Shown in pieces: positions 5,669-64,000 of a DNA stretch of 64,000 bases (position 1 is the first letter of the stretch; each line of letters begins with the position of its first letter). Below the pieces are notes generated by a model. It made no database searches. It saw only the letters and a list, made by a program, of their open reading frames with translations, and was not told the origin of the DNA. The stretch is taken from positions 1 to 64,000 of the forward strand of contig WHTA01000015.1 of NCBI GenBank assembly GCA_009379825.1. Direction: 5' to 3'. Source of the DNA: Streptosporangiales bacterium (GTDB taxonomy: Bacteria; Actinomycetota; Actinomycetes; Streptosporangiales; WHST01). The translations under genes were made by a program, and so were the position numbers.

Positions 5669-5697
5669 GCTCCGAATTGTGTCCCATCGGCGTGCGC

Positions 5698-7379: not shown

Positions 7380-7400
7380 CGTCGCCTCCCTCTCGCCGCA

Positions 7401-8936: not shown

Positions 8937-8937
8937 C

Positions 8938-9477
8938 TCATACCCTCCCGAGCAGGCCGATCATGCCGTCCGGCAGCGGGATCTGCAGCAGCTGCACGAA
9001 CACCAGCCAGGCGGTGAGCACCGAGGTGACGCTGATCAGGATCGCCAGCCACGGCTTCTCCCGTTCCACGAACCACAGCAGCGCGAGGATGAGCACGCCG
9101 AACGAGGCGAGGAACCCGATGACCACACTGAGCAGGATCGCGCCCAGCATCATCGCGAACACCAGGGCAGCGCGCCGCTCGGTCGGCGCCGCACTGCCGG
9201 ACGCGGGTGCCGCAGTGGCACCCTCGGCCACGTCGTCCGGCTGCGTCGGCGACGGCTGGCTGTCGGCAGCCGGCGTGCGCCTGATCTTCACCACCGTCTC
9301 GACGAGCGCCCAGGCGGCGAACCCGGCCAGTGCGACGCCCGCGAGCAGGGGAGTGAAGCCAGGTGCGATCCGGCCACCGGCACCGAAGATCCGGTAGCCG
9401 CCCGCGCTCACCGCCATGGCCACCCCCAAGGCGGTGAGCGCGGCCGCGAAGATCAGCTCTCCCGTGTGCTTGCGCAT
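8938..9477 (-). CDS. tctB: Tripartite tricarboxylate transporter, small membrane subunit
   Basis: The 179-residue protein has four predicted membrane segments: two near the N-terminus (FAAALTALGVAMAVSAGGY and PLLAGVALAGFAAWALVETVV) and two near the C-terminus. A disordered acidic loop of about 35 residues lies between the pairs, longer than in typical TctB. It ends PLPDGMIGLLGRV. It is placed between tctC (12 bp) and tctA (1 bp), the order expected for the system. Confidence 0.92.
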   Translation of the reverse strand: MRKHTGELIFAAALTALGVAMAVSAGGYRIFGAGGRIAPGFTPLLAGVALAGFAAWALVETVVKIRRTPAADSQPSPTQPDDVAEGATAAPASGSAAPTERRAALVFAMMLGAILLSVVIGFLASFGVLILALLWFVEREKPWLAILISVTSVLTAWLVFVQLLQIPLPDGMIGLLGRV

Positions 9478-9489
9478 CGGAGCCGACCG

Positions 9490-10488
9490 TCAGCCCTTCT
9501 CCACGATCGGCTCGAGCTCCTTCTGGTACGCCCTCAGGAACTTCTCGAACTCCTTGCCCTTGCGCTGCTGTGGATCCAAGTGGTTGGACTCGACGTACTT
9601 CTCGTAGTGCGCCGACTTCGTCCACTTGACGATCGTGCTCTCCCAGTACGCGCGCTGCTCCTCGGTGATGTCACCGGTGGCGAAGACACCGCGATACTGC
9701 GTGAAGGCGGCGTCCACGCCTTGCTCCTTGGCGGTGGGGATCTCGTCGAGCGGTGCCCTCTCGTACCGCTCGTCCGCGAACGCCGCGAGCGCGCGCACCT
9801 TGCCGGCCTTCAGCTGTCCGATGATCTCACTCGGGTTGAGGATGCCGATGTCGATGTCGCCGCCGAGCAGACTTGCGGACATCTCGCCGCCCGAGTCGAA
9901 GACCACCCGGTTGAACTTCACGTCCTGGTCACGTTCGATCAGGCTGGTGTTGACGCCGTCCGGGCTCGTGGTGCCGGCGATCCCGACCCGCAGCTTCTCC
10001 TTCTTCGCGGCGGCGATGGCCGAGTCCAGGTCCTTGTACGGCGAGTCCTTCGGCACGAAGAGCAGGCTGACGTCCTGCGCGATCTGCATGATGGGAGTGA
10101 AGTCGGTCCACTTCCACGGGGTCTTCGTGACCAGCGGCAGAGCGACGCCTGTGGTCTCCGACGGGAGCAGGTAGTGCGGGTCACCGCGCTTGGAGAGGAA
10201 GTACGAGTAGCCGACGGCGCCGCTGCCGCCGTCCCTGTTCTCCACCTGCACGTTGACGTCGGGCTCGACCTTCTCGATGCCGCCCTGCACTGCCCGCCCG
10301 AAGATGTCGCTGCCGCCGCCGGGGGCGAACGGCACGACCATGGTGACGTCCTGGGTGGGTGCCCAGTCGCCGCCACCGCCACCGTCGCCGGAGCCGCCGC
10401 TGCATCCGCTGAGCGTGGTGACGGCGACCGCCGCCGCGAGCGCGCCCACCCGGCGCGCGAAGAATCGTCTGCTGTTGTCTTGGCGCAT
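9490..10488 (-). CDS. tctC: Tripartite tricarboxylate transporter substrate-binding lipoprotein
   Basis: The 332-residue protein has a twin-arginine-like N-terminus (RRFFARRVGALAAA) followed by a lipobox, LSGC. It is therefore predicted to be exported and lipid-anchored to the outer face of the membrane. The mature part starts with the TctC/Bug motif VTMVVPFAPGGGSDIFGRAV and has the two-lobed binding fold. It captures the organic acid for TctAB. A 126-bp gap separates it from the CoA-transferase gene upstream; an internal promoter is possible but none was clear. Confidence 0.95.
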   Translation of the reverse strand: MRQDNSRRFFARRVGALAAAVAVTTLSGCSGGSGDGGGGGDWAPTQDVTMVVPFAPGGGSDIFGRAVQGGIEKVEPDVNVQVENRDGGSGAVGYSYFLSKRGDPHYLLPSETTGVALPLVTKTPWKWTDFTPIMQIAQDVSLLFVPKDSPYKDLDSAIAAAKKEKLRVGIAGTTSPDGVNTSLIERDQDVKFNRVVFDSGGEMSASLLGGDIDIGILNPSEIIGQLKAGKVRALAAFADERYERAPLDEIPTAKEQGVDAAFTQYRGVFATGDITEEQRAYWESTIVKWTKSAHYEKYVESNHLDPQQRKGKEFEKFLRAYQKELEPIVEKG

Positions 10489-10614
10489 TGCTGTTCCTCC
10501 AGGGTTCGTCGGAACTGCTGAACAACGCTGTTCGGTGTGCGCCCCCGTTCGTCCAACAGCCCGCTACGGGCGGTCAACGGAGTGGTCGGGCAACTTCTGG
10601 CATGCGCGGCCTCC

Positions 10615-11871
10615 CTAGTCCGGGTCGGGTAGTACGGCCTCAGCTGCCGGTGGTGCGCTCTCCCGCACGCCGACGACGCCGGCGCGGGCGAGCTCGTCGA
10701 TCTCACCGGGTGGCAGGCCGAACTCGGTCAGCACGGCGACGGTGTCGCCGCCGAGCACCGGCCCGGCCGCCCGGCGCACCGGGGGCGTGTCGGACAGCCG
10801 CAGCGGCGAGCCGAGCTGCCTGACCGGGTCGAGCTGTGGGTGTGGCGCATCCCAGAAGTAGTCCCGCGCCGTGAGGTGGTCGTCGGTGAACACCTGGTCG
10901 GTGGTCGCGATCGGAGCGCACGGTACGCCGACCTCGTCGAGGATGCGTACCAGCTCGGTGGCCGTCCGCGTCGTGGTGACGGCCTCGATCGCCGGGATGA
11001 GCGTGTCGCGGTTCGCCTGCCGGTCGAAGGCGTTGGCGTACCTGGCGTCGTCCTGCAGGTCGTCCAGCTGCAGTGCGCCGCAGAACGCGGCCCAGGTCTT
11101 GTCGGTGACCGCGCCGACCGTGATCCAGCCGTCGCTGGTTCGCACCGCCTGGTAAGGGGCCGTGGACTGGTGCGCCGAGCCGAGCCGGGCGCCAGGCTCG
11201 CCGGTCGCGAAGTACTTGCCGGCCTCCCAGATGGCGAACGACACGCCGGCCTCGAACAGCGAGACGTCGACGTGCTGGCCCTCGTCGGTCCGCGCCCGCG
11301 CCTGCAGCGCGGAGATGGCGCCGAGCGCGCCGTAGAGGCCGCACACCAGGTCGCAGATCGGCACGCCTACCTTGACCGGCCCGCCGTCTGGCTCGCCGGT
11401 GACGCTCATCAGGCCGGACCGCGCCTGCGCCATGATGTCCAGGCCGGGCAGCTGGGCGAGCGGGCCGTCCTGCCCCCAGCCGGAGACGGAGACGTAGACG
11501 AGGCGCGGGTTCAGCTCGCGGACGGCGTCGTAGCCGAAACCCAGCCTGGCCAGCGTGCCCGGCCGGAGGTTCTGGATCAGCACGTCGGTCTCGCGGAGCA
11601 GGGTCCGCAGGACGTCCTTGCCGGCGTCGGCCTTGAGGTCGAGCGCCATCGAGCGCTTGTTCCTGTTGAGCCGGACGAACGGGGAGCTGTGCCCGTCGAG
11701 GAACGGCCCGGTGGCGCGGACCGGGTCACCGCCTTCGACGTTCTCGATCTTTATGACGTCGGCACCTAGGTCGGCGAGCTGCATCGCGGCGAACGGTGCG
11801 GCCATGAAGGCGCCGATCTCGACGACGCGGACGCCGTCGAGTGCCGGCACCGCGGTTGACGACTCTGTCAT
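10615..11871 (-). CDS. CaiB/BaiF family (class III) CoA-transferase
   Basis: The 418-residue enzyme moves CoA between carboxylic acids. Family features are LDGVRVVEIGAFMAAPFAAMQ at the N-terminus, VIQNLRPGTLARLGFGYD, and the catalytic aspartate D145 in PGLDIMAQARSGLMS. The ATG at 11871 was chosen because GGAG (11877-11880) precedes it; an in-frame start 15 codons upstream would run through the operator. It is the first gene of the Tct operon, so the likely job is activation of the imported acid. The CoA donor and acceptor are unknown. Confidence 0.93.
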   Translation of the reverse strand: MTESSTAVPALDGVRVVEIGAFMAAPFAAMQLADLGADVIKIENVEGGDPVRATGPFLDGHSSPFVRLNRNKRSMALDLKADAGKDVLRTLLRETDVLIQNLRPGTLARLGFGYDAVRELNPRLVYVSVSGWGQDGPLAQLPGLDIMAQARSGLMSVTGEPDGGPVKVGVPICDLVCGLYGALGAISALQARARTDEGQHVDVSLFEAGVSFAIWEAGKYFATGEPGARLGSAHQSTAPYQAVRTSDGWITVGAVTDKTWAAFCGALQLDDLQDDARYANAFDRQANRDTLIPAIEAVTTTRTATELVRILDEVGVPCAPIATTDQVFTDDHLTARDYFWDAPHPQLDPVRQLGSPLRLSDTPPVRRAAGPVLGGDTVAVLTEFGLPPGEIDELARAGVVGVRESAPPAAEAVLPDPD

Positions 11872-51439: not shown

Positions 51440-51469
51440 CGGCGCCGTCAGACGGCCATGACGGCGCCG
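51440..51469. terminator. Bidirectional terminator between ngcG and the gamma-glutamyltransferase gene
   Basis: CGGCGCCGTCA (51440-51450) pairs perfectly with TGACGGCGCCG (51459-51469) around an 8-base loop. The hairpin contains the stop codon of the minus-strand gene and starts 4 bases after the ngcG stop. Confidence 0.65.
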
Positions 51470-53067
51470 TCGCCGGCCGGGTCGGCGCCGCCGTCCAGCC
51501 CGTCGGGGTGGATGCGGATCGCGAGCACCCTGGCGAAGTCGAACGTGACGGGGCTGCGCACGACCGAGTGTCCCGCCGCGCGCAGGTCGCGTTCCGTGCA
51601 GCGGGGTATCCGGTTGGAGACGTCGATGGCGCTGCTCGTCGCGGAGAACCTCGGCGCGCTGACCGCCTCCACCATGGTCATGTCGAAGTCGATCGCGTTG
51701 AGCAGCGTCTGCAGGATCCCCATGACGATCTGCGTGCCGCCTGGCGCGCCGACGACCAGGTGCGGTCGGTCGCCGTCGAGGACCATCGACGGTGCCATGG
51801 CACTGAACCTGGCCTTGCCGGGGGCCACGCTGCCGGTGCGTCCAGGCCGCGGGTCGAACACCGCCATGCAGCCGTTGTACATGAAGCCGAGGCCGTCGGT
51901 GATCACACCGGACGGGCTGCCGAGCGAGTGCGTCATGGTCACGCAGTTGCCGTCCGCGTCCACGATGGACAGGTGCGTGGTGTCCGGGCTCGGCGCCGGG
52001 TCGGTGTCGAGCCTTGGCACCTCCGCGCGTTCGCCGGCGCGGATCCGCTCGGCGAGCTCGGCTGCGTACGCCGCGGCGGTCAGCCGGTCGAGCGGCACGT
52101 CGACGAACGCCGGGTCGCCGACGTAGCGGTCCTTGTCGATGGTGGCCAGCTTCATCGCCTCGGCGACGGTCTGGATGTACTCCGGCGAGTTGTGCTCGAG
52201 CGCCTTCAGGTCGAAGCGCTCGAGCACGTGCAGCATCTGGAGCAGCATGACGCCGCCGCCCGGCGGCTGGTTCGTCGCCACCCGGTAGCCGCGGTACGCA
52301 CCCCACAGCGGCGCCCTGCGGGTGGGGCGCCAGCGCTGCAGGTCCGCCGCGGTGAGCAGGCCGCCGTGCCGGCCGATGTCGTCGGTCATCGCGTGCGCGA
52401 TCTCGCCCTCGTAGAACACCGACACCCCGTGCTCGGCGATCGCCCGCAACGTCGCGCCGAGGTCGCGGTTGACGACCTCGTCGCCGAGCTGTTTCGGCGT
52501 ACCGTCCTGGCGGCAGTACAACGCGCGGCCGGCCGCGGAGTACCTGAGCTTGTGGTCGTTCGCGAGCCGTCCCATCGGGTCGTGCCTGGCCCAGAACGAC
52601 GCCACCTGCGGTCGTACGGTCCAGCCCTCCTCGGCGAAGGAGATCGCCGGCTCGACCACCTGTTGCCACGGCAGCCGGCCGTACGCGTGGTGGATGTCCC
52701 AGTACGCACGCAACGCCGCCGGCGTGCAGATCGACTGGTAGCCGAGCTCGTTGACCGAGTCGCGCAGGAGGAAGCCGAAGCCGTCGCGGGTCTCACCCTC
52801 GATCAGGTGCTCCCACATGTCGGGCCGGCTCGCCAGCGGCGCGGGCGCGTGGAAGTCGACGTACTCGTGCACGCCGGCGCCGGGGAGCAGCATGCCGCAG
52901 CTGCCGAAGCCGGCGATGCCGCACATCAGCGGGTCGATCACACCCTGGGCGAACGCGCATGCGACGGCCGCGTCGACGGCGTTCCCGCCCGCCCGCAGGA
53001 TCTCCACCGCCGTCTCCGTGGCCTCCGGCTGCGCGGCGACGACCATCCCTGGCTTCCTGCTCCGCAC
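51448..53067 (-). CDS. ggt: Gamma-glutamyltransferase family protein
   Basis: The 539-residue Ntn-hydrolase precursor has the family start KPGMVVAAQPEATETAVEILRAGGNAVDAAVA, NQPPGGGVMLLQMLHVLE, and the autoprocessing site DTTHLSIVDADGNCVTMTHSLG, with T363 as expected nucleophile. GAPGGTQIVMGILQTLLNAID is near the C-terminus. No signal peptide is visible, whereas classical Ggt is exported, so it may be cytosolic and act on a different gamma-glutamyl or acyl substrate. It lies 79 bp downstream of the BadF-type kinase. Confidence 0.92.
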   Translation of the reverse strand: MRSRKPGMVVAAQPEATETAVEILRAGGNAVDAAVACAFAQGVIDPLMCGIAGFGSCGMLLPGAGVHEYVDFHAPAPLASRPDMWEHLIEGETRDGFGFLLRDSVNELGYQSICTPAALRAYWDIHHAYGRLPWQQVVEPAISFAEEGWTVRPQVASFWARHDPMGRLANDHKLRYSAAGRALYCRQDGTPKQLGDEVVNRDLGATLRAIAEHGVSVFYEGEIAHAMTDDIGRHGGLLTAADLQRWRPTRRAPLWGAYRGYRVATNQPPGGGVMLLQMLHVLERFDLKALEHNSPEYIQTVAEAMKLATIDKDRYVGDPAFVDVPLDRLTAAAYAAELAERIRAGERAEVPRLDTDPAPSPDTTHLSIVDADGNCVTMTHSLGSPSGVITDGLGFMYNGCMAVFDPRPGRTGSVAPGKARFSAMAPSMVLDGDRPHLVVGAPGGTQIVMGILQTLLNAIDFDMTMVEAVSAPRFSATSSAIDVSNRIPRCTERDLRAAGHSVVRSPVTFDFARVLAIRIHPDGLDGGADPAGDGAVMAV

Positions 53068-53146
53068 GCGCGCTCCTCTCGGTCACGGCCCGTCCCGAGC
53101 ACCCAACCACGTTCGGCGGGCGTGAGCTACGGGAATGCGGCGCGCG

Positions 53147-54109
53147 TCACACCGGCGTGCGGAGCTCGCGGCCGCCCGCGTGGTGCGGGGTTCCCTCGGT
53201 CGTCGCGAGGAACGCGGCACCGTGCAGGCCGCCACCGGCGGGCTGGTAGACGGCCAGTGCCGGGCAGTCGGTGGCGAGCCTGGCCAGCAACGGCAGGCGG
53301 ACGGTGTCGGTCGTGGTGAGGATGCTGCCGGTCCAGGTGAACGGCACGGTCGCTGCGGCGGCAGCCGGGTGGGCGCGCCGTACGGTCGCGGTGACCGTGG
53401 CGGCGAGCTCCGCGACGGCCCGCTCGCAGATGCCGCGGGCCACCTCGTCACCGGACTCGGCGGCCTCGACCACCTGCCGGGCGAACGCGGCGATGTCGCT
53501 GACCATGGTCGGCGACGCGAGCACCCGGTGGACGAACGCACGCAGCTCGCCGCACTCGGTCACGGCGCGGTCGGTCAGCTCGGTCGCCTGGTGCCGGCCG
53601 TCGAGCCCGGCGAGCGCTGCGCGCAGTCCCTCCCGGCCCAGCCACGAGCCGCCGCCGGCATCGCCGAGCAGGTAGCCCCAGGCGTCGACGCGCAGCAGCC
53701 CGCCGTCGGCGTCGACCGAGGTGCAGACGACACCTGTGCCGGCGTTGAGCACCACGCCCGGCCGGCCGCCGAGCGCACCCGCGTGCGTGGTGACGTCGTC
53801 GCCGGCGGCGACGACCCGCGTGGCGCCGGTCTCCTCCGCCAGGCCCTGCAGCAGCGGGGTGACGTGCGGACCGGTCAGGTTCAGGCCGGACAGCCCGCAG
53901 GCGAGCGTCCGCACCGGTCCAGGTCTGCCCAACGCGTGCCAGGCCCGGCTGACCGCCTCGCGCTGGGCGGCCCCCGGGTCGGCGCCGCTCGTCCAGGCGA
54001 ACCCGGGGACGTCCACCGTGGCGCCGAGCACCGGGCCGGCGTCCGTGCTGGTGACGGTGGCCATCCGCAACCCGCTCTGGCCGCCGTCTGCGGCGAGGTC
54101 GACATGCAC
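53147..54109 (-). CDS. BadF/BadG/BcrA/BcrD ATPase family kinase, N-acetylglucosamine kinase-like
   Basis: The 320-residue ASKHA-fold protein begins VHVDLAADGGQSGLRMAT (phosphate 1 loop). It has GVVLNAGTGVVCTSV (phosphate 2) and WGYLLGDAGGGSWLGREGL, the pattern of N-acetylglucosamine kinases in this family. It probably phosphorylates the amino sugar brought in by NgcEFG, though the two operons face each other. The GTG at 54109 was chosen because homology starts immediately. An operator lies 37 bp upstream, so the kinase and the gene after it are likely controlled by the divergent GntR protein. Confidence 0.85.
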   Translation of the reverse strand: MHVDLAADGGQSGLRMATVTSTDAGPVLGATVDVPGFAWTSGADPGAAQREAVSRAWHALGRPGPVRTLACGLSGLNLTGPHVTPLLQGLAEETGATRVVAAGDDVTTHAGALGGRPGVVLNAGTGVVCTSVDADGGLLRVDAWGYLLGDAGGGSWLGREGLRAALAGLDGRHQATELTDRAVTECGELRAFVHRVLASPTMVSDIAAFARQVVEAAESGDEVARGICERAVAELAATVTATVRRAHPAAAAATVPFTWTGSILTTTDTVRLPLLARLATDCPALAVYQPAGGGLHGAAFLATTEGTPHHAGGRELRTPV

Positions 54110-54145
54110 GGGCAGAGGGTAGCGCGCTGACCGAACGTTGAGATG

Positions 54146-54173
54146 TCGATGAAATCGTTGACGATTTCGTCGA
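54146..54173. promoter_or_regulatory. 28-bp operator palindrome between the kinase and GntR genes
   Basis: TCGATGAAATCG (54146-54157), centre TTGA and CGATTTCGTCGA (54162-54173) form an inverted repeat with 11 of 12 pairs matched. It sits 20 bp before the GntR start at 54194 and 36 bp from the kinase start, so it can control both directions. The same position argues against a GntR start at 54143, which would put the operator inside the coding region. Confidence 0.78.
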
Positions 54174-54193: not shown

Positions 54194-54829
54194 ATGCTCG
54201 AACCCACCGCCGGGGAGATCGCGTGCCAGCGACTGCGCGAGGCGCTGCGCAGCGGCAGGTACGTGCCGCAGCAGCGGTTGATCGAGCCGGACGTGATGGC
54301 GGAGCTGGACGTCACCCGGCTGGCGCTGCGCGAGGCGTTCGCCCGGCTCGAGCACGAGGGGCTGGTGCAGCGCCAGGCGAACCGCGGCGCGACGGTGCGG
54401 CTGCTGTCGCTGGACGAGGCGACCGAGGTGCTGGAGATCCGCTCGGTCGTCGAGGGGCTGGGCGCCAGGCACGCCGCCGCACTGGCCACCGACGACGACA
54501 TCGCTGCCCTGTGGCAGAGCATCGAGCGGTTCGAGAGCGCCCTCGCCGAGCCGGACATCGCGGCGTGCAACACCGCGCAGGCCGCGCTGCACAACCTGGT
54601 CACCGACATCTCGGCCCGGCCGACCGTGGCCAGGCTCACCGACATGCTCAGCGCCCAGAGCGCGCAGACCCGGATGACCACGGCGCGGGTCAGCGGCCGG
54701 CTGCGGCAGTCGCTCGAGGAGCACCGGGCGATCGTCGAGGCGATCGCCGGCCGCGACCAGGATGCCGCCGAGGCGGAGATGCGGCGCCACATCAACGGCG
54801 TCATCGAGGCGGCTACCGAATCCATGTGA
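54194..54829 (+). CDS. GntR family transcriptional regulator (FCD domain)
   Basis: The 211-residue protein starts MLEPTAGEIACQRLREALRSGRYVPQQRLIEPDVMAELDVTRLALREAFARLEHEGLV, a GntR winged helix in which the usual S-R-x-P-V/L-R-E-A is TRLALREA. A helical FCD domain follows (EIRSVVEGLGARHAA, LHNLVTDI, LEEHRAIVEAIAGRD). ATG 54194 was preferred over ATG 54143, which overlaps the operator. It is followed after 28 bp by the molybdenum hydroxylase genes, so it may control those as well as the divergent kinase gene. Confidence 0.92.
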   Translation: MLEPTAGEIACQRLREALRSGRYVPQQRLIEPDVMAELDVTRLALREAFARLEHEGLVQRQANRGATVRLLSLDEATEVLEIRSVVEGLGARHAAALATDDDIAALWQSIERFESALAEPDIAACNTAQAALHNLVTDISARPTVARLTDMLSAQSAQTRMTTARVSGRLRQSLEEHRAIVEAIAGRDQDAAEAEMRRHINGVIEAATESM

Positions 54830-54857
54830 CCGAAGCACCGGGGTCGAAGGAGCAGCG

Positions 54858-55709
54858 GTGATACCAGCACCCTTCAGGTACGTGCGGCCGAGCACGCTGG
54901 CACAGGCGCTCGAGCTGCTGAACGCGGAGGCAGCCGCGTGCGTGCTGGCCGGCGGGCAGAGCCTGCTCACCCAGCTGAAGAGCCGCGCGGTGACCCCGGA
55001 CCTGGTGGTCGACCTCGGTGCGCTCGACGAGCTGCGGGAGATACGCAGTCGCCCGGGGACGGTGACCATCGGCGCGATGGTCACCTTCGCCCGGTTGGCG
55101 AAGAACCCCGTCGTGCGCGAGAGCGTGCCGGTGCTCGCGCAGACGGTCGCGCACGTCGCGGACGTGCAGGTGCGCAACCGCGGCACGCTGGGTGGCTCGC
55201 TGTCGTACGCCGACCCGTCGGGCGACCTGGCGGGCGCGGTGATCGCCGCCGGTGGCACCGTACGGCTGGTCTCCGCGGACGGCGAGCGGGAGCTGCCCGC
55301 CGAGCAGCTGTACGCCGGGCCGTTCCGTACGGTGCTGGCGCCCGGCGAGCTGCTCGTCGACGTGACCATGCCGCGGCACGACACCGCGCACACCGCGTAC
55401 TACGCGGTGGCCAGGCGCCCGGCCGACCCGACGCTCGCCGGGGTGGCCCTGGTCGCCACCGTCGACGCGGACCGGATCACCGACATCGGCGTCGGCCTGG
55501 TGGGCCTCGGCGACCGACCGCTCGCGGCGGCGGCGACGGCCCGCGCACTGCGCGGTCAGCCACTGGGTGGCGCCGAGGCGGGCACCGCCCTCGCCGACGA
55601 GATCGCGCCACTTCCCAGCACCGCCGGCCAGGCCGAGTATCGCCGCGCCGTCGCCCTGACGGCGCTCGAGCGGGCGCTGCGCCAGCTGACCCAGGAGGCC
55701 GCCTCATGA
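54858..55709 (+). CDS. Molybdenum hydroxylase, FAD-binding medium subunit (CoxM/CutM type)
   Basis: The 283-residue flavoprotein reads FRYVRPSTLAQALELLNAEAAACVLAGGQSLLTQLKSR, with the FAD loop AGGQSL, then VRNRGTLGGSLSYADPSGD, the second FAD motif. It passes electrons from the iron-sulfur subunit to an acceptor. GTG 54858 follows AAGGAG (54847-54852). Its stop overlaps the small-subunit start (ATGA). It is the first of three genes in the order M-S-L. Confidence 0.93.
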   Translation: MIPAPFRYVRPSTLAQALELLNAEAAACVLAGGQSLLTQLKSRAVTPDLVVDLGALDELREIRSRPGTVTIGAMVTFARLAKNPVVRESVPVLAQTVAHVADVQVRNRGTLGGSLSYADPSGDLAGAVIAAGGTVRLVSADGERELPAEQLYAGPFRTVLAPGELLVDVTMPRHDTAHTAYYAVARRPADPTLAGVALVATVDADRITDIGVGLVGLGDRPLAAAATARALRGQPLGGAEAGTALADEIAPLPSTAGQAEYRRAVALTALERALRQLTQEAAS

Positions 55710-56191
55710 CCGATTACGACGAACAGGTCGAGCTCGACGTGAACGGCGAACGGGTCGCCGCCACCGTGCCGGCCCGCATGCTGCTCGTGCACTACCTCCG
55801 CGAGGTGGCCGGGTGCACGGGGGTGCACGTCGGCTGCGACACCGGTAACTGTGGCGCGTGCACCGTGCTGCTCGACGGGCAACCGGTGAAGTCGTGCATG
55901 CTGCTCGCGGCCCAGGGGAGCGGGCAGCAGGTGACCACCGTGGAGGGGCTGGACGCGCCGTGCGTACCGGCGCTGCGGCAGGCGTTCACCGCGCACGGCG
56001 CCATCCAGTGCGGGTACTGCACGCCCGGCATGCTGACCAACGCGACCGCCCTGCTGTGCGAGCAACCGGACGCCGACGAGGAGAGCATCCGCAACGCCCT
56101 GCGCGGCAACCTCTGCATGTGCACCGGGTACCAGCAGATCGTGGACGCGATCTCCGCGGTGGCACAGCAGGGAGAGGCGGCGCAGCGATGA
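55706..56191 (+). CDS. Molybdenum hydroxylase, 2Fe-2S small subunit (CoxS/CutS type)
   Basis: The 161-residue protein has the plant-ferredoxin cluster motif GCDTGNCGACTVLLDG near residue 43 and the second cluster CGYCTPGM with CMCTGYQQIVDAI. All eight cysteines are present. It carries electrons from the molybdenum centre to FAD. ATGA overlaps join it to both neighbours. Confidence 0.95.
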   Translation: MTDYDEQVELDVNGERVAATVPARMLLVHYLREVAGCTGVHVGCDTGNCGACTVLLDGQPVKSCMLLAAQGSGQQVTTVEGLDAPCVPALRQAFTAHGAIQCGYCTPGMLTNATALLCEQPDADEESIRNALRGNLCMCTGYQQIVDAISAVAQQGEAAQR

Positions 56192-58596
56192 CCATCTACG
56201 CACCCGAGAGCACGCTCGCCACCGACAACTGGGTGGGCAAACCGGCGCCGCGCAAGGAGGACGGGCGGCACCTCACCGGCAAAGCGCGGTTCCTGGACGA
56301 CCTGCCGTTCGCCGGCGGCGCGATGGCCGTACTGCGCAGCCCGCACCCGCACGCGCGCATCGTCTCCGTCGACACGTCGCGGGCGCTCGCCGACCCGAAC
56401 GTCCTCGCGGTGGTGACTGGTGCGGACGTCCGCAACGAGACCACACCGGTGGCGTCGCGGTCGATCACCGCGCCGGTGACGCAGTATGTGATGGCCGTAG
56501 ACAAGGTGCGCTGGGTGGGCGAGCCGGTCGCCGCCGTCGCCGCGACCGACGTGTACGCGGCACGCGACGCGCTCGACCTGATCGACGTCGAGTACGAGGT
56601 GCTGCCCTCGGTCGCCGAGATCGGCGACGCCCTCGCCGACGGTGCGCCGCTGCTATACGAGGACATCGACAGCAACATCCTCGTGCACGACGAGCTCCTG
56701 CACGGCCCCATGGAGCAGGCGTTCGACGACGCGGCGTTCGTCGTGCGGGAGACCTACCGGGTGGGCAGGTTCAGCTCGACGCCGTTGGAGCCGTACGCGC
56801 TCTCGGTGTCGTACGACCCGCGCGACGAGCAGTTCGACATCGTGGCGAACGACCAGCAGCCGGCCCGGTCGATCGGCAACATCACGAAGGCGCTCGGCGT
56901 GCACACGTCGGACGTACGGCTGCACGTGCCGGAGAGCGGCGGCTCGTTCGGCATCAAGCTTGCGATCTGGCCGTACGCGCTCATCGGCTGCCTGTTGGCC
57001 AAGCGGGTCGACCGACCGCTGAAGTGGATCCAGACCCGCACCGAGCACCTGCTCGGCGGCACCCACACGCCCGACGTCGAGATGGACATGGAGCTGCCGG
57101 TCGACGCCGATGGCAAGATCCTCGCCATGCGCCTGCACAGCAGGGAGAACGACGGCGCGTTCATCCACACGGCCGGCATCTACGGGCTGATCAAGTTCGC
57201 TACGGCCGTCGGGCCGTACACCATCGGCGCGGCGAGCATCGACCTGATGAGCGTGGTGACCAACCGCGGGCCCGTGGTGCAGAACCGCGGGGTGGGCAAG
57301 CCCGCCATGACGTTCGCGCTCGAGCGCTCCGTGGACCGCGCGGCCCGGCAGCTGGGCATCGACCCGGCGGAGTTCCGGCTGCGCAACCTGGTGCCCGCGG
57401 AGGCGATGCCGTACACCACGCCGGCGGGGGAGATCTACGAGAGCGGCGACTACCCGGCGACGCTGCGCAAGGCGCTGAAGCTCGGCCGGTACGAGGAGTT
57501 CCGTGCGCGGCAGGTGGACGCGCGCGCCGAGGGCAGGTTGCTCGGCATCGGGCTCAGCGCGGGGATCGAGCCAGGCACGTCGAACATCGGCTACTACTCG
57601 CTGCTCAAGGGCACCACCGAGTACAACGGCAGCGCGGAGGGCGCAGTCGTCGGCATCGAGGTGGACGGCAGGGTCACCGTTCGCACCGGCTCGGTCGACA
57701 CCGGCCAGGGCCACGAGACCACCATCTGCCAGGTGGTCGCGGACATGCTCGGCGTCGGCCTGGACGACGTGCACTTCGACACCACGTTCGACTCGTCGTG
57801 CTCGCCGTACACCGGCGCGTCCGGCGCGTACGCGAACCGGTTCAACGACGTGGAGGTCGGCGCGGTCATCACCGCGACCAAGCGGGTGCGGGTGAAGCTG
57901 CTCGAGCTCGCCGCGTACCTGATGGAGGCCGAGCAGGGCCAGCTGGTGCTCGGCGGCGGCGCGGTGAGCGCCGCGGACGGCAAGGCGCAGATGTCGCTCG
58001 CCGACCTGGCCAAGATCGCGTACAACAAGGTGGTGCTGCTGCCGCCGGACATGGACCCCGGCCTGCGGGTGCTCGCGTACTACCGCAACCCGATGGCGAA
58101 GCCGCCGGAGCGCGAGGACTTCAATGTGCAGCTGACGCACTCGAACTCGGTACATGTGGTGGTGGTGGAGGTCGACCCGGGCACGGGCATGCTCGACTTC
58201 CTGAAGTACGCGATCGTGCACGACTGTGGCCGGCAGCTCAACCCCACTGTGGTGGAGGGCATGGCGATCGGCTCCACCGTGCACGGCATCGGCGCCGCGC
58301 TGCTCGAGGAGTTCCAGTACGACGAGGCTGGCAACCCGCTTGCGACCACGTTCCAGACGTACCTGAAGCCGGTCGCCCAGACGGTGCCGCGGATCGAGCT
58401 CGGCCACCTGGAGTCGCCGTGCCCGTACACCATCCTCGGCACGAAGGCCACCGGCGAGGGTGGCGCGATCACGTCGCTCGCAGCGATCGGCAACGCGGTC
58501 GAGGATGCCCTGCTGCCGCACGGCGTGCAGGTGAACTCGCTGCCGATCACACCGGAGAAGATCTTGCGCGGGATCCGCCATGGCACTGCCATCTGA
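56188..58596 (+). CDS. Molybdenum hydroxylase, molybdopterin-binding large subunit (CoxL/CutL type)
   Basis: The 802-residue catalytic subunit starts GKPAPRKEDGRHLTGKARFLDDL and has SVDTGQGHETTICQVVADMLG in the cofactor-binding region. GTKATGEGGAITSLAAIGNAVEDAL near the C-terminus contains the catalytic glutamate. The cysteine-bearing loop of true CO dehydrogenase (AYxCSFR) is absent, so this is an aromatic or heterocycle hydroxylase rather than CODH. The RGxGRPE loop is altered to RGVGKPAM, suggesting an unusual substrate pocket. It overlaps the next gene by 17 bp. Confidence 0.93.
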   Translation: MTIYAPESTLATDNWVGKPAPRKEDGRHLTGKARFLDDLPFAGGAMAVLRSPHPHARIVSVDTSRALADPNVLAVVTGADVRNETTPVASRSITAPVTQYVMAVDKVRWVGEPVAAVAATDVYAARDALDLIDVEYEVLPSVAEIGDALADGAPLLYEDIDSNILVHDELLHGPMEQAFDDAAFVVRETYRVGRFSSTPLEPYALSVSYDPRDEQFDIVANDQQPARSIGNITKALGVHTSDVRLHVPESGGSFGIKLAIWPYALIGCLLAKRVDRPLKWIQTRTEHLLGGTHTPDVEMDMELPVDADGKILAMRLHSRENDGAFIHTAGIYGLIKFATAVGPYTIGAASIDLMSVVTNRGPVVQNRGVGKPAMTFALERSVDRAARQLGIDPAEFRLRNLVPAEAMPYTTPAGEIYESGDYPATLRKALKLGRYEEFRARQVDARAEGRLLGIGLSAGIEPGTSNIGYYSLLKGTTEYNGSAEGAVVGIEVDGRVTVRTGSVDTGQGHETTICQVVADMLGVGLDDVHFDTTFDSSCSPYTGASGAYANRFNDVEVGAVITATKRVRVKLLELAAYLMEAEQGQLVLGGGAVSAADGKAQMSLADLAKIAYNKVVLLPPDMDPGLRVLAYYRNPMAKPPEREDFNVQLTHSNSVHVVVVEVDPGTGMLDFLKYAIVHDCGRQLNPTVVEGMAIGSTVHGIGAALLEEFQYDEAGNPLATTFQTYLKPVAQTVPRIELGHLESPCPYTILGTKATGEGGAITSLAAIGNAVEDALLPHGVQVNSLPITPEKILRGIRHGTAI

Positions 58597-59569
58597 CGGC
58601 TGCATCGACGCGCACGCGCACCTCGTACCGGCGAAGCTGGTCGAGGCGACCGAGCGTGCCGCGGGCAACCTGCCGAACGTGACCGTGAGCCGCCCCGAGG
58701 GCGGCGGCGTCGCGATCTCGTTCCCCAGCACCCAGGCGGTGCGGCCGATCCCGCCCGCCGTGCTCGACCGGGAGCGCTCGCACGCGTGGATGGACGCCCA
58801 CGGCATCGCGGCGCAGGTGGTGGGTGTCTGGGCCGACCTGTTCGCGTACGACCTGCCGCCGCGCGAGGCCGCGTACTGGACCAGGATGGTCAACGAGCTG
58901 CTGGTCGAGGAGACGCATGCGTCCGGCAGGATGGCACCGCTGGCCATCCTGCCGCTGCAGGACACCACGCTTGCGTTGCAGGAGCTCGACCGCGCCCTGG
59001 ACCTCGGCTATCCCGGGGTCACCATCGGGTGTTCGGCGGGTGCCGACGAGCTCGACCACGACCGGCTGGACGAGGTGTGGGCGGCACTCGCGGACCGCCG
59101 GGTGCCTGTGGTCATGCACCCAGGCTTCCGCACCAGCGACGTTCGTGCAACGGCGTACGGGCTGCCGAACACCCTTGGCCGTGCGTACGACACCGACGTC
59201 GCCGTCGCGCGGCTGCTTTACTCCGGCCGGCTCGCGAAGCACCCCGGAGTACGTCTCGTGCTGATGCACGGGGGAGGGGCGGTGCCGTACCTCTGGGGCC
59301 GGATGCAGCGCAACCACGCGCTCGGCGACGGGCCGGCCGATCCCGCCGATGGTTTGGCATGCCTGTACTTCGACAGCGTCGTCTACCGCGAGCAGGCGCT
59401 GTCGTACCTGGTCGACTTCGCCGGCGCCGACCGCGTGCTGCTCGGCTCCGACTACCCGTTCCCCATCATGGACCCTGAACCGTTGCGGGTGGTGCGCGAG
59501 CTGGTACCACCGGACGACGTGCGCGCCCGAATCTGCGCGGACAACGCCCGTGCCCTGTTCGTCCGCTGA
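58580..59569 (+). CDS. Amidohydrolase family 2 protein, ACMSD-type decarboxylase
   Basis: The 329-residue TIM-barrel protein has metal ligands CIDAHAHLVP (HxH), VVMHPGF, LVLMHGGGAVPYLWGRM and GSDYPFPIMDP. This is the 2-amino-3-carboxymuconate-6-semialdehyde decarboxylase pattern. Relatives decarboxylate aromatic or heteroaromatic acids such as resorcylate or 3,6-dihydroxypicolinate. It overlaps the Mo-hydroxylase large subunit, so it probably acts on the hydroxylated product. Hydrolysis instead of decarboxylation is possible. Confidence 0.88.
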   Translation: MALPSDGCIDAHAHLVPAKLVEATERAAGNLPNVTVSRPEGGGVAISFPSTQAVRPIPPAVLDRERSHAWMDAHGIAAQVVGVWADLFAYDLPPREAAYWTRMVNELLVEETHASGRMAPLAILPLQDTTLALQELDRALDLGYPGVTIGCSAGADELDHDRLDEVWAALADRRVPVVMHPGFRTSDVRATAYGLPNTLGRAYDTDVAVARLLYSGRLAKHPGVRLVLMHGGGAVPYLWGRMQRNHALGDGPADPADGLACLYFDSVVYREQALSYLVDFAGADRVLLGSDYPFPIMDPEPLRVVRELVPPDDVRARICADNARALFVR

Positions 59570-59600
59570 CCCCGTCGAGACCGTCGAGAAAGGACGCCCC

Positions 59601-60080
59601 ATGGCGAATGATCCGATCCCCACCCGCGAGGTCATCACGGCCGGTGACACGCGCGTCGAGCTGGACCGTCCAGGCGTGCGGATGACGGCGGCCGAGGTGC
59701 TCGGCGGCGCGGAACGGTTGGTGTACTTCGACACCGCGGACGACAAGCTCCAGCCGGCCAACTACGACAAGCCCGACGGTGCGCCGCTGCGGGTGCTCAC
59801 GTCCGCCGCGGCGAAGGTCGACGTCTCCAAGCGCAGCGTGCACGACATGGGGTTCTGGCACCGCAACGTCGACCACTCCGAGGTCATCATCTGCGTCAAG
59901 GGCGCGCTGCGGTGGGAGACCGAGCTCGGCGTGCACGAGCTGACGGCCGGCCAGGTGCTGTGCATCCCGCGCGGTGTCGCGCACCGGTCGGCGCTGTGCG
60001 ACAAGTCCGAGGAGGAGAACATCCTCGTCGAGCTGAAGGTGCACGACGACATGACACCCGTCGGCCCGATCGGAGACTGA
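59601..60080 (+). CDS. Cupin domain protein
   Basis: The 159-residue protein starts at ATG 59601 after GAAAGGA. The cupin motifs are GFWHRNVDHSEVIICVKGALRWE and LTAGQVLCIPRGVAHRSAL, with histidines and glutamate in place for a metal site. This could be a ring-cleavage dioxygenase, an isomerase or a small-molecule binder. It lies 31 bp after the ACMSD-type gene and 1 bp before the next amidohydrolase. Confidence 0.82.
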   Translation: MANDPIPTREVITAGDTRVELDRPGVRMTAAEVLGGAERLVYFDTADDKLQPANYDKPDGAPLRVLTSAAAKVDVSKRSVHDMGFWHRNVDHSEVIICVKGALRWETELGVHELTAGQVLCIPRGVAHRSALCDKSEEENILVELKVHDDMTPVGPIGD

Positions 60081-60081
60081 C

Positions 60082-61491
60082 GTGACTGCCGAACCGCAGG
60101 TGGTCGACGTCGTCGTCGAGCACATCGACTGGTTGGTCACCGTCGACGAGGAGCGGCGGGTGATCAGGGACGCTGCCGTGGCGATCGCCGATGGTCGGTT
60201 CGCCGCCGTCGGCAAGACCGACGAGATCGCCGCGGCCTACACCGGCAGCACGGTCGTCGACGGCCGGCGGCGGGTCGGCACGCCGGGCCTCATCGACGCG
60301 CACCTGCACTCGTCCTTCCAGCTGTCGCGCGGGCTCGCGGACGAGGCGAATGCGCGGGAGTTCCTCATCCAGCGGATGTACCCGTACGAGGCGGCGCTCA
60401 CGCCGGACGACGTCGAGCTCAGTGCCCGGCTGGCCGCCAGGGAGATGCTGCTGCACGGCACCACGTGCTTCGTCGACCCGGGCAACAACCACCCGGAGCG
60501 CAGCCTCGCCGGCGTGGTGCCCACGGGGATCCGGGTGGTCGTCGCGCGCAGTGCGTTCGACCTCGGCGACTCCGCGTTCGGCAGTGTGCCCGACTCGATG
60601 GTGTCGACACCGGACTCCGCCGCGCGGGAGGCCGCCGATCTGGTGGACAAGTACCACGACACCGAAGGCGGCCGGGTGCGCGCCTCGGTGTCGTTCCGGG
60701 GGTTCAACAACTCCAGCGACGAGCTGATCCGCGCGCTCGGTGCGGTGGCGGACGACAAGAACGTGCTGCTGCAGACGCACGCCTGCTTCAACTACTCGAC
60801 GCACGACGCGTCGGTGGCGAAGTTCGGCCGGCCGGAGATCGAGCGGATGGCCGAGCTGGAGCTGCTCGGGCCGCGTACCCTGCTCGTCCACGGCGGCTGG
60901 CTCGAACCGCACGAGGTCGCGCTCCTGGCGGAGCACTACGCGAGCATCGTGGCGGCGCCGAGCTCGTCCCTGCACAACGGGTACGGCAACATCCGGATGG
61001 GCGTGATCCCCGAGCTGCTCGCGCTCGACGTGAACGTGGGGCTCGGCAGTGACCACGCCTGCTCCGGCCCGGTCGACCTGGTGCGGGAGATGTTCCTCGT
61101 TGCCTGCGGCCACAAGGAGGTGCGGCTGAACCCGCGCGTGCTGCCGCCCGAGCAGGCGGTGGAGATGGCCACGGTGAACGGGGCGCTGGCCGTCGACGCG
61201 GCCGACGATCTCGGGGCCGTCGCAGTGGGCAAGCAGGCCGACCTGGTGCTGTTCGACGTCGACGACCCGAGCTGGCAGCCGCTCTACAACCCGGTGTCGA
61301 ACCTGGTGTACTCCGCGACCGGCCGCACCGCGCGCGACGTGTTCGTCGCCGGCGAGCGGGTCGTCGAAGGCGGCCGGCTCGCGAGGGTCGACGAGGAGCG
61401 GCTGCTCGCCGACGTCACCGCGGGCGCAGCCGCCCTCTACGACCGGCTGGACGGCGACTCCCTCGTCCGCGGCCGCTGGCCGGTCAGCTAG
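60082..61491 (+). CDS. Metal-dependent amidohydrolase, SsnA/chlorohydrolase-deaminase type
   Basis: The 469-residue protein has TPGLIDAHLHSSFQLSRGLADE (HxH), VLLQTHACFNYS, LVHGGWLEPHE and NVGLGSDHACSG, the ligand set of amidohydrolases that deaminate or dechlorinate heterocycles (cytosine deaminase, guanine deaminase, TrzN and SsnA relatives). ATVNGALAVDAADDLGAVAVGKQADLVLFD is the usual C-terminal closing motif. It could remove an amino group from a nitrogen ring. GTG 60082 is one base after the cupin stop. Confidence 0.88.
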   Translation: MTAEPQVVDVVVEHIDWLVTVDEERRVIRDAAVAIADGRFAAVGKTDEIAAAYTGSTVVDGRRRVGTPGLIDAHLHSSFQLSRGLADEANAREFLIQRMYPYEAALTPDDVELSARLAAREMLLHGTTCFVDPGNNHPERSLAGVVPTGIRVVVARSAFDLGDSAFGSVPDSMVSTPDSAAREAADLVDKYHDTEGGRVRASVSFRGFNNSSDELIRALGAVADDKNVLLQTHACFNYSTHDASVAKFGRPEIERMAELELLGPRTLLVHGGWLEPHEVALLAEHYASIVAAPSSSLHNGYGNIRMGVIPELLALDVNVGLGSDHACSGPVDLVREMFLVACGHKEVRLNPRVLPPEQAVEMATVNGALAVDAADDLGAVAVGKQADLVLFDVDDPSWQPLYNPVSNLVYSATGRTARDVFVAGERVVEGGRLARVDEERLLADVTAGAAALYDRLDGDSLVRGRWPVS

Positions 61492-61492
61492 G

Positions 61493-61565
61493 CGGTTGAC
61501 CGCAGTGGCTGCCCTGGGCGAGCCTCCGGGGTGGCCAAAAAATTCCTCCCAAAACCGGTCAACCG
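61493..61565. repeat. Pair of inverted 10-bp sites, CGGTTGACCG and CGGTCAACCG
   Basis: CGGTTGACCG (61493-61502) and its exact reverse complement CGGTCAACCG (61556-61565) flank a 53-bp segment that includes an A-rich patch. Each site is itself nearly palindromic (CGGT..ACCG). Centre spacing is 63 bp, six helical turns. It follows directly after the plus-strand catabolic genes. Possible operator pair or large stem. Confidence 0.5.
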
Positions 61566-61657
61566 TGGCGCCGGTCCAGGCGTCTACGTGACGTCCGGTG
61601 GCGAAGGGGACCGCCACCGGCTGGACCACGGGCGACCACGCCCTTACCTGGGAGGCC

Positions 61658-61819
61658 ATGACTCGGATGGTCGAGCTGTTCTTCGTGCTACTCGCCGCCA
61701 CCGCGGTGGCGGCCTGCGCCGGACTCGTGCTACTGATCGGCGGCTCGCGGTTGCGCCCCGTGACGCTCGCCTTCGCCCGCACCGTTCGGCGGGTGACCGG
61801 CCGTGCCCGTACGCCCTAG
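61658..61819 (+). CDS. Small single-span membrane protein, function unknown
   Basis: The 53-residue protein MTRMVELFFVLLAATAVAAC... has one strong membrane helix (FFVLLAATAVAACAGLVLLIGG) and a basic C-terminus (RTVRRVTGRARTP). GGAGG (61651-61655) lies 2 bases before ATG 61658 and 11 bases before ATG 61667; either start is possible. I recognise no family. Its stop overlaps the stop of the convergent flavin reductase gene. The composition fits a real small membrane protein, but it may be spurious. Confidence 0.4.
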   Translation: MTRMVELFFVLLAATAVAACAGLVLLIGGSRLRPVTLAFARTVRRVTGRARTP

Positions 61820-62343
61820 AAGAACCAGTCGATGGGGCCGTGGTCGCCGACGGAGAGCTCGCCGAAGCTGCCGGCGTAGAAGGTCAGCGGCTTGCCGTCG
61901 CGCGCACAGGTGCTGACGATGCGGCCGAGGAACAGCACGTGGTCGCCGGCCGCCACCTCCTGCTCGGTGACGCACTCGAGGTGGGCGAGTGCGGCGGGGA
62001 TCACCGGCACGTCGTGGTAGCCGTACTCCAGCGGTAGGCCGGCGAAGTGGTCGACGCCGCTCTTGGCGAACCGCCTGGCGATCTCCTCCTGACGCGACGA
62101 CACGACCGACACCGCGAACCTGCCGGCGGTGCGCATGGTGCTCGTCGTGCGGGCGTCCTCGGTGAGGGAGACCAACAGCAGCGGCGGGTCGAGCGACACC
62201 GAGGTGAGCGAGTTGACCGTCATGCCGTCGGCGTTGCCGTCGGCGATGCTGGTGACGACGGCGACCCCGGTGGCGAACTTGCTCATCGTCCGCCGCAGCA
62301 GCCCGGGGTCGGTGCCCTTACTGTGTTCGATGGTCACGAGCAC
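61816..62343 (-). CDS. Flavin reductase family protein (HpaC-like)
   Basis: The 175-residue protein reads LRRTMSKFATGVAVVTSIADGNADGMTVNSLTSVSLDPPLLLVSL, the FMN-binding signature of the HpaC/flavin reductase-like domain. It then has ALAHLECVTEQEVAAGDHVLFLGRI. It supplies reduced flavin to an oxygenase; the HpaB-type gene two genes upstream on the same strand is the evident partner. GTG 62343 or GTG 62337 could start it; the gap to the cupin gene is 4 bp. Confidence 0.92.
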   Translation of the reverse strand: MLVTIEHSKGTDPGLLRRTMSKFATGVAVVTSIADGNADGMTVNSLTSVSLDPPLLLVSLTEDARTTSTMRTAGRFAVSVVSSRQEEIARRFAKSGVDHFAGLPLEYGYHDVPVIPAALAHLECVTEQEVAAGDHVLFLGRIVSTCARDGKPLTFYAGSFGELSVGDHGPIDWFF

Positions 62344-62347
62344 ACCC

Positions 62348-62692
62348 TCACGCTGGGTAACGGACCTCGAACGTCAGGCAGCCGTCCTCGCTCGTCCACG
62401 GCCCGTGCGGCATGCCGGGCGGCCGGCACGCGTAGCTGCCCGCGGGGAAGGTCTGACCCAGTCGGAGATCGCTCATCGACCCCTCGAGGATGTACACCTC
62501 TTCCCAGAAGTCGTGCTCCTGCACGCCGTTCTTGCTGGTGTCGCACCCCGGTTCGAGCTTCAGCATCCGGGTCGCGACCCCGGTCTGCGGGTCGCTCGCG
62601 AGGATGCGCTCGGTGAGCCCCTCCGCCTCCCCGGCGCAGCGGGTGAACCCGACCGTGCCGACGTCGAAGAACTCGTACTCCGGCTTCGCCAT
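62348..62692 (-). CDS. Cupin domain protein
   Basis: The 114-residue protein has VQEHDFWEEVYILEGSMSDL and FPAGSYACRPPGMPHGPW, the two cupin motifs with their histidines and glutamate. ATG 62692 fits, since the hpaB-like gene ends 10 bp upstream. It lies between the monooxygenase and its reductase, so it probably serves the same pathway. It is not a close copy of the cupin at 59601. Confidence 0.85.
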   Translation of the reverse strand: MAKPEYEFFDVGTVGFTRCAGEAEGLTERILASDPQTGVATRMLKLEPGCDTSKNGVQEHDFWEEVYILEGSMSDLRLGQTFPAGSYACRPPGMPHGPWTSEDGCLTFEVRYPA

Positions 62693-62702
62693 GCAATCGC
62701 TC

Positions 62703-64000
62703 CTAGTCTTCGCTGCCGTACGAGGCGAGGAACTTCTCCACCGCGGCCAGTGGCTCCTCGAACCCGTAGTTCCGGTAGGCGTATCCCTTCGCGACGAACG
62801 GGGCGCCCGCATAGAACATCTCGTACTGGTGGTGTCTGCTGCCGAACTCGCTGCCGACGGCGTCCCAGACCAGCTTGAACAGCTTGACCCGCTCCTCCGC
62901 GGGCACGCCGGGGGACTGCACGTAGCGGTCCATGTCGGCGCGGGTCGCGGGGTTGCGCATCTCCGCGACGCTCGACGGCACCTGGAGCACGCCGCCGCCG
63001 ACGAGCTCCCGCACGATGGCGAGCACCCGCGGGTACAGCTCGGCCTGCAGCCCCATGGCGCCGTAGAGCGAACGCGGCCGCGGTCGCCACATCCCGGCGT
63101 CGTCCGGGGTGGCCTGGTACTCGGCGGCGAGCACCGCGGACTCGACCAGCGACGCGACGCTGGCCAGCTCACCCAGCTTCTCCTGCACGCCGGGGATACG
63201 GTCGACGCCCGTGGTCTGCGCCGCCTTGCGGGCCAGCCCGGCGAGGAACTGCAGCTTGACCGCGAACCTGATCTGCGCCTGCCAGTTGCCGAGCACGTGC
63301 GCGCCGGTGTCGAAGAACTGCCGGCGCACGCCGTCCACGTCGCGGCAGACGAAGACCTGCTCCCACGGCACGAACACGTCGTCGAAGACGACCAGGGCGT
63401 CGGTCTCGTCGTACCGGGTGCTGAGCGGGTAGTCGAACGCGCTCGTCGACGCAGGTGCGTACGGCCGCCGGCAGTACAGCTTGAGCCCCGGCGACGCGAC
63501 CGGCAGCGCGAAACCGAGCGCGAAGTCGCGGTCCTCAGGCGTGAGCGGCTTGATGCAGGACACGAAGATCTCGTCGGCGATCGCGCCGCCGGTGGCGAGC
63601 ATCTGCGAGCCGCTCACGACGATGCCGTCGTCGCGCTCCTCCTTGACGCCCACCTGGATCAGGTCGCCCTCCCAGGCGTGTGCCGTGGTTGCGCGGGAGA
63701 CCTGCGGCGGGATGATGGCGTACGAGACGTAGAGGCTCTCCTCGACCGCCCGCTTGTAGTACGCGGTGACGTTGGCGCTGAGGTCGTGCTCGTCACCACG
63801 GAACGCCTCCGGGTGTGCCGCGAACCCGGCGAGGAACGCCGCGACGTGGTCCGGGCTGCGGCCGACCCACCCGTGCGTGTGCTGCGACCAGGTCTCGATC
63901 GCCTTGCGCCGCGCGACGAGGTCGTCGTGGGTGCGCGGGATGGAGTAGACCAGGTTGGCCTGTCCACCGGTCTCCGGCGACTCGTACAGCATCCCGTTCG
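62703..64000 (-). CDS. 4-hydroxyphenylacetate 3-hydroxylase family (HpaB-type) flavin monooxygenase, 5' end outside window
   Basis: The 432 visible codons include ARRKAIETWSQHTHGWVGRSPDHVAAFLAG, LIQVGVKEERDDGIVVSGSQMLATGGAIADEIFVS, ALVVFDDVFVPWEQVFVCRDVDGVR and VPSSVAEMRNPATRADMDRYVQSPG. This is the acyl-CoA-dehydrogenase-like fold of HpaB/PvcC oxygenases, which hydroxylate aromatic rings with FADH2 from a separate reductase. The family is about 480-520 residues, so some 50-90 residues are missing beyond base 64000. Frame continues open to the edge. Confidence 0.93.
   Translation of the reverse strand, partial: NGMLYESPETGGQANLVYSIPRTHDDLVARRKAIETWSQHTHGWVGRSPDHVAAFLAGFAAHPEAFRGDEHDLSANVTAYYKRAVEESLYVSYAIIPPQVSRATTAHAWEGDLIQVGVKEERDDGIVVSGSQMLATGGAIADEIFVSCIKPLTPEDRDFALGFALPVASPGLKLYCRRPYAPASTSAFDYPLSTRYDETDALVVFDDVFVPWEQVFVCRDVDGVRRQFFDTGAHVLGNWQAQIRFAVKLQFLAGLARKAAQTTGVDRIPGVQEKLGELASVASLVESAVLAAEYQATPDDAGMWRPRPRSLYGAMGLQAELYPRVLAIVRELVGGGVLQVPSSVAEMRNPATRADMDRYVQSPGVPAEERVKLFKLVWDAVGSEFGSRHHQYEMFYAGAPFVAKGYAYRNYGFEEPLAAVEKFLASYGSED

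Follow-up and report, generated by a model that had tools for sequence, protein, structure and literature searches.

Candidate N-heteroaromatic catabolic unit with a Mo-hydroxylase, a small cupin and an ACMSD homologue beside an HpaB/HpaC unit in a Streptosporangiales bacterium

Genes of the locus and their arrangement

The window analysed here is a 64,000-nt stretch of DNA (C15:1-64000) at the start of a Streptosporangiales contig that continues to 103 kb, in a genome of 6.15 Mb and 169 contigs (G000). For comparison within the genus, we used G000 itself and two congeners, G002 and G004. Profile searches confirmed the genes named below as true open frames, each matching its family at the position given, and bore out the gene content of the original prediction: a Mo-hydroxylase with M, S and L subunits, an ACMSD-type protein, an amidohydrolase, two cupins, an HpaB/HpaC pair and a GntR regulator. 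The genes form two groups, here called units 1 and 2, separated by a convergent gap of 325 bp.

Unit 1 (window positions 54194-61491, forward strand) contains seven genes and begins with a GntR/FCD regulator (GntR1, 54194-54829; Pfam GntR and FCD). An operator-like palindrome, GAAATCGTTGACGATTTC, is located upstream at 54151-54168, and occupies the same place in G002 and G004. The start of GntR1 was set at 54194 by comparison with the congeners, because the ORF start at 54143 would overlap the palindrome. The original prediction had a GntR gene beside a cluster spanning 54858-64000; the regulator is indeed present, but starts just left of that interval and is part of unit 1. GntR1 is followed by the M (FAD) subunit of the Mo-hydroxylase (54858-55709; FAD_binding_5, PF00941, 5e-49; CO_deh_flav_C, PF03450), the S (2x[2Fe-2S]) subunit (55706-56191; Fer2_2, PF01799; Fer2, PF00111) and the L subunit (56188-58596; MoCoBD; PF20256, PF02738 and PF01315). 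The remaining genes encode an ACMSD-type decarboxylase of the Amidohydro_2 family (58580-59569), a small cupin, cupA (59601-60080), and an SsnA-like amidohydrolase (60082-61491; Amidohydro_1, PF01979, 4e-46).

Unit 2 lies on the reverse strand from 61816 to 64151, running past the end of the window. It comprises an HpaC-type flavin reductase (61816-62343; PF01613, 1e-40), a second small cupin of the ChrR/Cupin_7 type, cupB (62348-62695; PF12973, 2e-12), and an HpaB-type oxygenase (PF11794, PF03241). The latter is truncated by the window (62703-64000), and the full gene occupies 62703-64151 on the contig. Extension of the sequence to the right, which the original prediction had proposed, showed that unit 2 goes on with a DUF2848 gene and a second GntR gene (GntR2). 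Beyond GntR2, and divergent from it, are an ABC transporter with an NMT1/SsuA-type binding protein, a UbiD decarboxylase and then uvrA.

On its left, unit 1 is adjoined by reverse-strand genes for a gamma-glutamyltranspeptidase and a kinase-like BadF/BadG-type ATPase (window 51448-54100), which are themselves adjoined by a sugar-type ABC permease pair. A further Amidohydro_1 protein (L005, 13882-15138) is encoded outside the catabolic units, between uvrA and an APH-family kinase gene and before uvrC.

Conservation and regulation of the two units

G002 and G004 both carry unit 1 as a block of the same seven genes in unchanged order, at 62-84% identity. Gene by gene, from GntR1 to the amidohydrolase, identity is 67, 67, 75, 84, 71, 75 and 81% with G002 and 65, 62, 75, 84, 71, 76 and 77% with G004. 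Because both units recur gene for gene in the congeners, the grouping of their genes is not due to chance. Among the genomes searched, carriers of unit 1 were limited to G000, G002 and G004. No further copies were found in samples of 299, 396 and 395 genomes, and a contig scan of 84,980 species with the ACMSD homologue, which used patterns drawn from near orthologues only, returned the G004 contig alone.

The arms of GAAATCGTTGACGATTTC, 13 nt each, are 92% complementary, and the palindrome precedes GntR1 in all three genomes. At ≤2 mismatches, it has one site in the 6.15-Mb G000 genome, one in G004 and two in G002, whilst the reversed-GAAATCGTTGACGATTTC control gave zero sites. The second G002 site is the front of a decayed extra copy of unit 1 (L040, G002:C125, ~6900-9460), in which GntR1, a frameshifted M and S are followed by a jump into the C-terminus of the amidohydrolase; the operator copy before this remnant is intact. 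A different palindrome, CATACATCAGGTGTATG, is located between GntR2 and its divergent neighbour, inside a block that is conserved in all three genomes, and is single-copy in each. From these positions, we infer that each GntR protein binds its own palindrome.

The two units also have different surroundings in the congeners. In G002, a flavin-domain protein and phosphodiesterases precede unit 1, a sulfatase and an MFS transporter come after it, and no HpaB gene lies within the preceding 7.3 kb or the following 4.3 kb. Unit 2 of G002 is on a different contig, together with the ABC transporter and UbiD, and no Mo-hydroxylase adjoins HpaB as far as that contig extends (158 bp on the HpaC side). 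In G004, unit 2 is split over two contigs, C385 and C12, that have an identical 101-bp end within HpaB. A different Mo-hydroxylase, with an enoyl-CoA hydratase-type gene, is found on the HpaC side. The other side has a LysR gene, then a third Mo-hydroxylase operon that includes an ACMSD homologue (41%), and finally UbiD. The HpaB unit of G004 thus lies between other Mo-hydroxylases, and it is therefore the core of the unit that is kept and not its Mo-hydroxylase neighbour.

The original prediction had joined all of these genes into a single pathway. The different GntR regulators and conserved operators of the units, their lack of linkage in G002 within contig reach and the other Mo-hydroxylases adjoining HpaB in G004 do not support this view, and we read the interval as two adjacent, separately regulated catabolic units and not one. 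The prediction had been open to refutation by a placement of the Mo-hydroxylase and HpaB in unrelated, separately regulated pathways. The signs of separate regulation were found; separate operators and regulators do not, however, make the pathways unrelated.

The adjacency of the units in G000 could also reflect one composite pathway, in which the product of the Mo-hydroxylase would be hydroxylated again by HpaBC and decarboxylated by either the ACMSD homologue or UbiD before a cupin opens the ring and hydrolysis follows, with the two GntR proteins sensing different intermediates. We regard this as unlikely, given the distinct regulators and operators and the occurrence of unit 1 alone in G002, although several observations point towards it. 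In G004, Mo-hydroxylase operons stand on both sides of the HpaB unit, one of them with an ACMSD homologue, and in G002 relatives of cupB (56%) and DUF2848 are located directly before another Mo-hydroxylase operon. Moreover, HpaB genes lie ≤10 kb from a Mo-hydroxylase L gene in 2/4, 1/4 and 2/2 cases in the three genomes in turn (5/10 in total), against expected fractions of 4, 6 and 8% (P = 0.0099, 0.23 and 0.0067); the test was set up post hoc, takes in the window's own cluster and assumes uniform placement, and therefore speaks for catabolic clustering and not for a shared pathway. Such proximity is weak evidence, as clustering is common among catabolic genes. A similar bias was seen for UbiD genes (1/5, 4/9 and 3/5 near L genes; P = 0.19, 0.0014 and 0.0049), in genomes with about 12, 19 and 13 L genes. 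Adjacent Mo-hydroxylase and HpaB genes do not necessarily belong to one pathway, a point of importance when pathways are called automatically in genomes that have a dozen or more Mo-hydroxylases.

Active-site residues and predicted enzyme functions

The Mo-hydroxylase has the complete set of xanthine oxidase family features: MoCoBD, FAD and two [2Fe-2S] domains, and a catalytic glutamate (ATGEGG) in the L subunit. The nearest solved sequence to L is quinoline 2-oxidoreductase (PDB 1t3q, 3e-120). A form I (aerobic) CO dehydrogenase was ruled out, as the Cys active-site loop is absent (QNRGVG at 365 in all three orthologues) and scores are far under the CO dehydrogenase cut-offs. We infer an N-heteroaromatic-type Mo-hydroxylase, with ring hydroxylation as its predicted reaction.

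A related arrangement is found in an uncharacterised operon of the Agrobacterium tumefaciens plasmid pAt15-1187-1-2a1 (NZ_CP123840, 245226-251818), where Mo-hydroxylase L, M and S genes are directly followed by a cupA relative (54% identity). The L subunits of this operon and of unit 1 have in common the loop SGGSFGIKL, which was not seen in three other L subunits compared. Unlike in unit 1, the Agrobacterium L subunit is fused to a CoxG domain, and alpha/beta hydrolases (one PcaD-like) replace the ACMSD homologue and the amidohydrolase. A branched-chain-type ABC transporter and a benzoate-CoA ligase are encoded nearby.

CupA has a weak match to the homogentisate dioxygenase N-domain model (PF20510, 1.6e-5). 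Alignment with its orthologues and the Agrobacterium relative revealed the motif HRN-x4-E...H (H87, E94 and H128), with all three residues conserved as far as Agrobacterium; across relatives, the conserved form is HRN/S-x-D-x-x-E with a later His. The HRNVDxxE of cupA is spaced like HRNVDYDE, found in the C-terminal portion of a protein annotated as homogentisate dioxygenase. These similarities suggest a 2-His-1-Glu metal site of the homogentisate-dioxygenase type. CupA is not a homogentisate 1,2-dioxygenase itself, being a single 159-aa cupin as opposed to a two-domain bicupin of ~390-440 aa, and scoring 20.7 bits against a cut-off of 510.

Not every cupin of a ring-degrading pathway is an oxygenase, however: in lumichrome breakdown, LumY acts once the ring has been opened (PMC12746152). 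The lumichrome (lum) cluster of Nocardioides simplex resembles unit 1 in combining a xanthine-oxidase-type hydroxylase, hydrolases, decarboxylation of a heterocyclic acid and a cupin, but uses a P450, a TPP-dependent decarboxylase and Rieske and extradiol dioxygenases, and its cupin is not the ring-opening enzyme (PMC12746152). With enzymes that differ in this way, lumichrome catabolism was ruled out for unit 1.

The closest PDB relative of the Amidohydro_2 protein is ACMSD (5e-36). Alignment showed that the metal ligands (H12, H14, H180 and D291), the catalytic H230 and the two arginines R55 and R241 are kept, and all of them are invariant in the three orthologues. R55 and R241 align with the substrate arginines Arg51 and Arg239 of the Pseudomonas enzyme. 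Decarboxylation could nevertheless precede ring opening, by a logic like that of picolinate breakdown, with the ACMSD homologue acting on the closed ring of a dihydroxylated pyridine carboxylate. The pic cluster of Alcaligenes faecalis JQ135 and Bordetella bronchiseptica provides the model: PicC, a 3,6-dihydroxypicolinate decarboxylase annotated as an amidohydrolase, acts on the intact hydroxypyridine and works in a cluster with the picolinate dehydrogenase PicA (PMC10142695). This likeness does not extend to the MarR regulator PicR, the 6HPA monooxygenase PicB, the 2,5-dihydroxypyridine dioxygenase PicD or the PicEFG lower pathway, none of which is encoded in unit 1 of the three genomes. As unit 1 also has no second hydroxylase of its own, and its decarboxylase retains the ACMSD arginines and has ACMSDs as its closest solved relatives, we consider picolinate-like logic improbable.

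The amidohydrolase retains the metal ligands of its family (HxH, H233, H270 and D324). However, in all three orthologues Phe236 (H233-A-C-F236) occupies the position at which AtzA, MTA/SAH deaminase and 3hpa have the HxxE glutamate, which is likewise absent from the nearest plasmid relatives in the alignments. The ring-nitrogen-protonating HxxE glutamate of the COG0402 deaminases (SsnA, guanine, 8-oxoguanine and MTA/SAH deaminases) is therefore missing, and for this reason neither a deaminase label nor an amino-substituted substrate is supported; the amino-substituted ring that the original prediction had drawn from the SsnA resemblance is correspondingly weakened. The protein remains a predicted C-N hydrolase. 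A route in which this enzyme deaminates an amino-substituted heterocycle, be it a pterin, an aminopyrimidine or a creatinine-like compound, appears very unlikely in view of Phe236, even though its top NCBIfam matches are deaminases, below cut-off, and a Variovorax relative adjoins hydantoinase A/B genes, a context that would fit cyclic amidine breakdown.

In unit 2, both HpaBC components are present at full length. Alignment of HpaB with the E. coli enzyme and the congeners placed Arg98 at Arg113 of the presumed substrate triad of E. coli HpaB (R113, Y117 and H155), but Tyr117 and His155 are exchanged for His102 and Tyr140, and bit scores are well under the HpaB equivalog cut-offs. The orthologues of G002 and G004 show this exchange too, as do the readable genus paralogues (L028, L031, L044 and L024). 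The substrate triad of a 4-hydroxyphenylacetate 3-monooxygenase is thus incomplete, and 4-hydroxyphenylacetate-like chemistry is not to be assumed for unit 2.

A proposed route for unit 1

The original prediction of an uncharacterised catabolic unit with a Mo-hydroxylase, an ACMSD homologue and a cupin is upheld for unit 1. Our preferred reading, to which we assign a probability of roughly 0.5, is that unit 1 by itself specifies the breakdown of a carboxylated N-heteroaromatic compound or a related aromatic acid, with unit 2 separate. We base the proposed reactions, their order, the repression and the substrate class on the observed gene content, conservation, operators and residue conservation. 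The Mo-hydroxylase would place water-derived oxygen onto a ring carbon, after which cupA, as a putative mononuclear 2-His-1-Glu iron oxygenase of the homogentisate-dioxygenase type, would open the ring. The ACMSD homologue would decarboxylate the acidic ring-opened product, and the amidohydrolase would act last to cleave a C-N bond (lactam, amide or exocyclic amidine). GntR1 may keep the operon repressed by binding the palindrome at 54151-54168, and be released by a pathway compound. A point against this reading is that unit 1 lacks a dedicated transporter.

The order of the cupA and decarboxylase steps is taken from the known relay of 3-hydroxyanthranilate 3,4-dioxygenase and ACMSD, which operates in kynurenine and 2-nitrobenzoate catabolism. 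As in that relay, a cupin, here a putative oxygenase, adjoins an ACMSD-type decarboxylase, and the ligands and both arginines are kept in unit 1. The front end of unit 1 differs in being a Mo-hydroxylase, there is no semialdehyde dehydrogenase, and the cupA motif is that of homogentisate dioxygenase and not that of the 3-hydroxyanthranilate enzyme.

More tentatively, unit 1 may be a new module whose Mo-hydroxylase supplies a stand-alone cupin, single-domain and of the homogentisate-dioxygenase type, and an ACMSD relative, for a natural N-heteroaromatic acid without a known pathway, and whose Mo-hydroxylase/cupA core is common to Agrobacterium. If true, the small number of N-heteroaromatic pathways with a defined genetic basis would gain a compact Mo-hydroxylase/cupin/ACMSD route, and cupA would represent a small ring-opening oxygenase that is overlooked by current family models.

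Unit 2, with HpaBC, cupB, DUF2848, GntR2, the ABC transporter and UbiD, would constitute another route for aromatic acids, served by a separate regulator and uptake system, and may or may not share intermediates with unit 1. The units are 325 bp apart here, so they may cooperate. Our literature search on DUF2848, and on HpaB with UbiD and Mo-hydroxylase clusters, found nothing.

Other uncharacterised clusters of the genus contain related genes. One G002 operon (L042, G002:C134, 2516-10007) encodes a GntR regulator, a luciferase-type monooxygenase, a carbon-nitrogen hydrolase, DUF2848, the cupB relative and Mo-hydroxylase L, M and S. UbiX, a Mo-hydroxylase, an amidohydrolase, an AA_synth-family protein and HpaB/HpaC relatives are clustered in G000 (L031, G000:C47, 144-11709) and G002 (L044, G002:C8), with partial conservation between the two genomes. 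An IclR regulator accompanies a second operon that combines a Mo-hydroxylase with an ACMSD homologue and is under its control, located at 5292-10833 in G000 (L030, G000:C10) and at 5502-11037 in G004 (L041, G004:C12).
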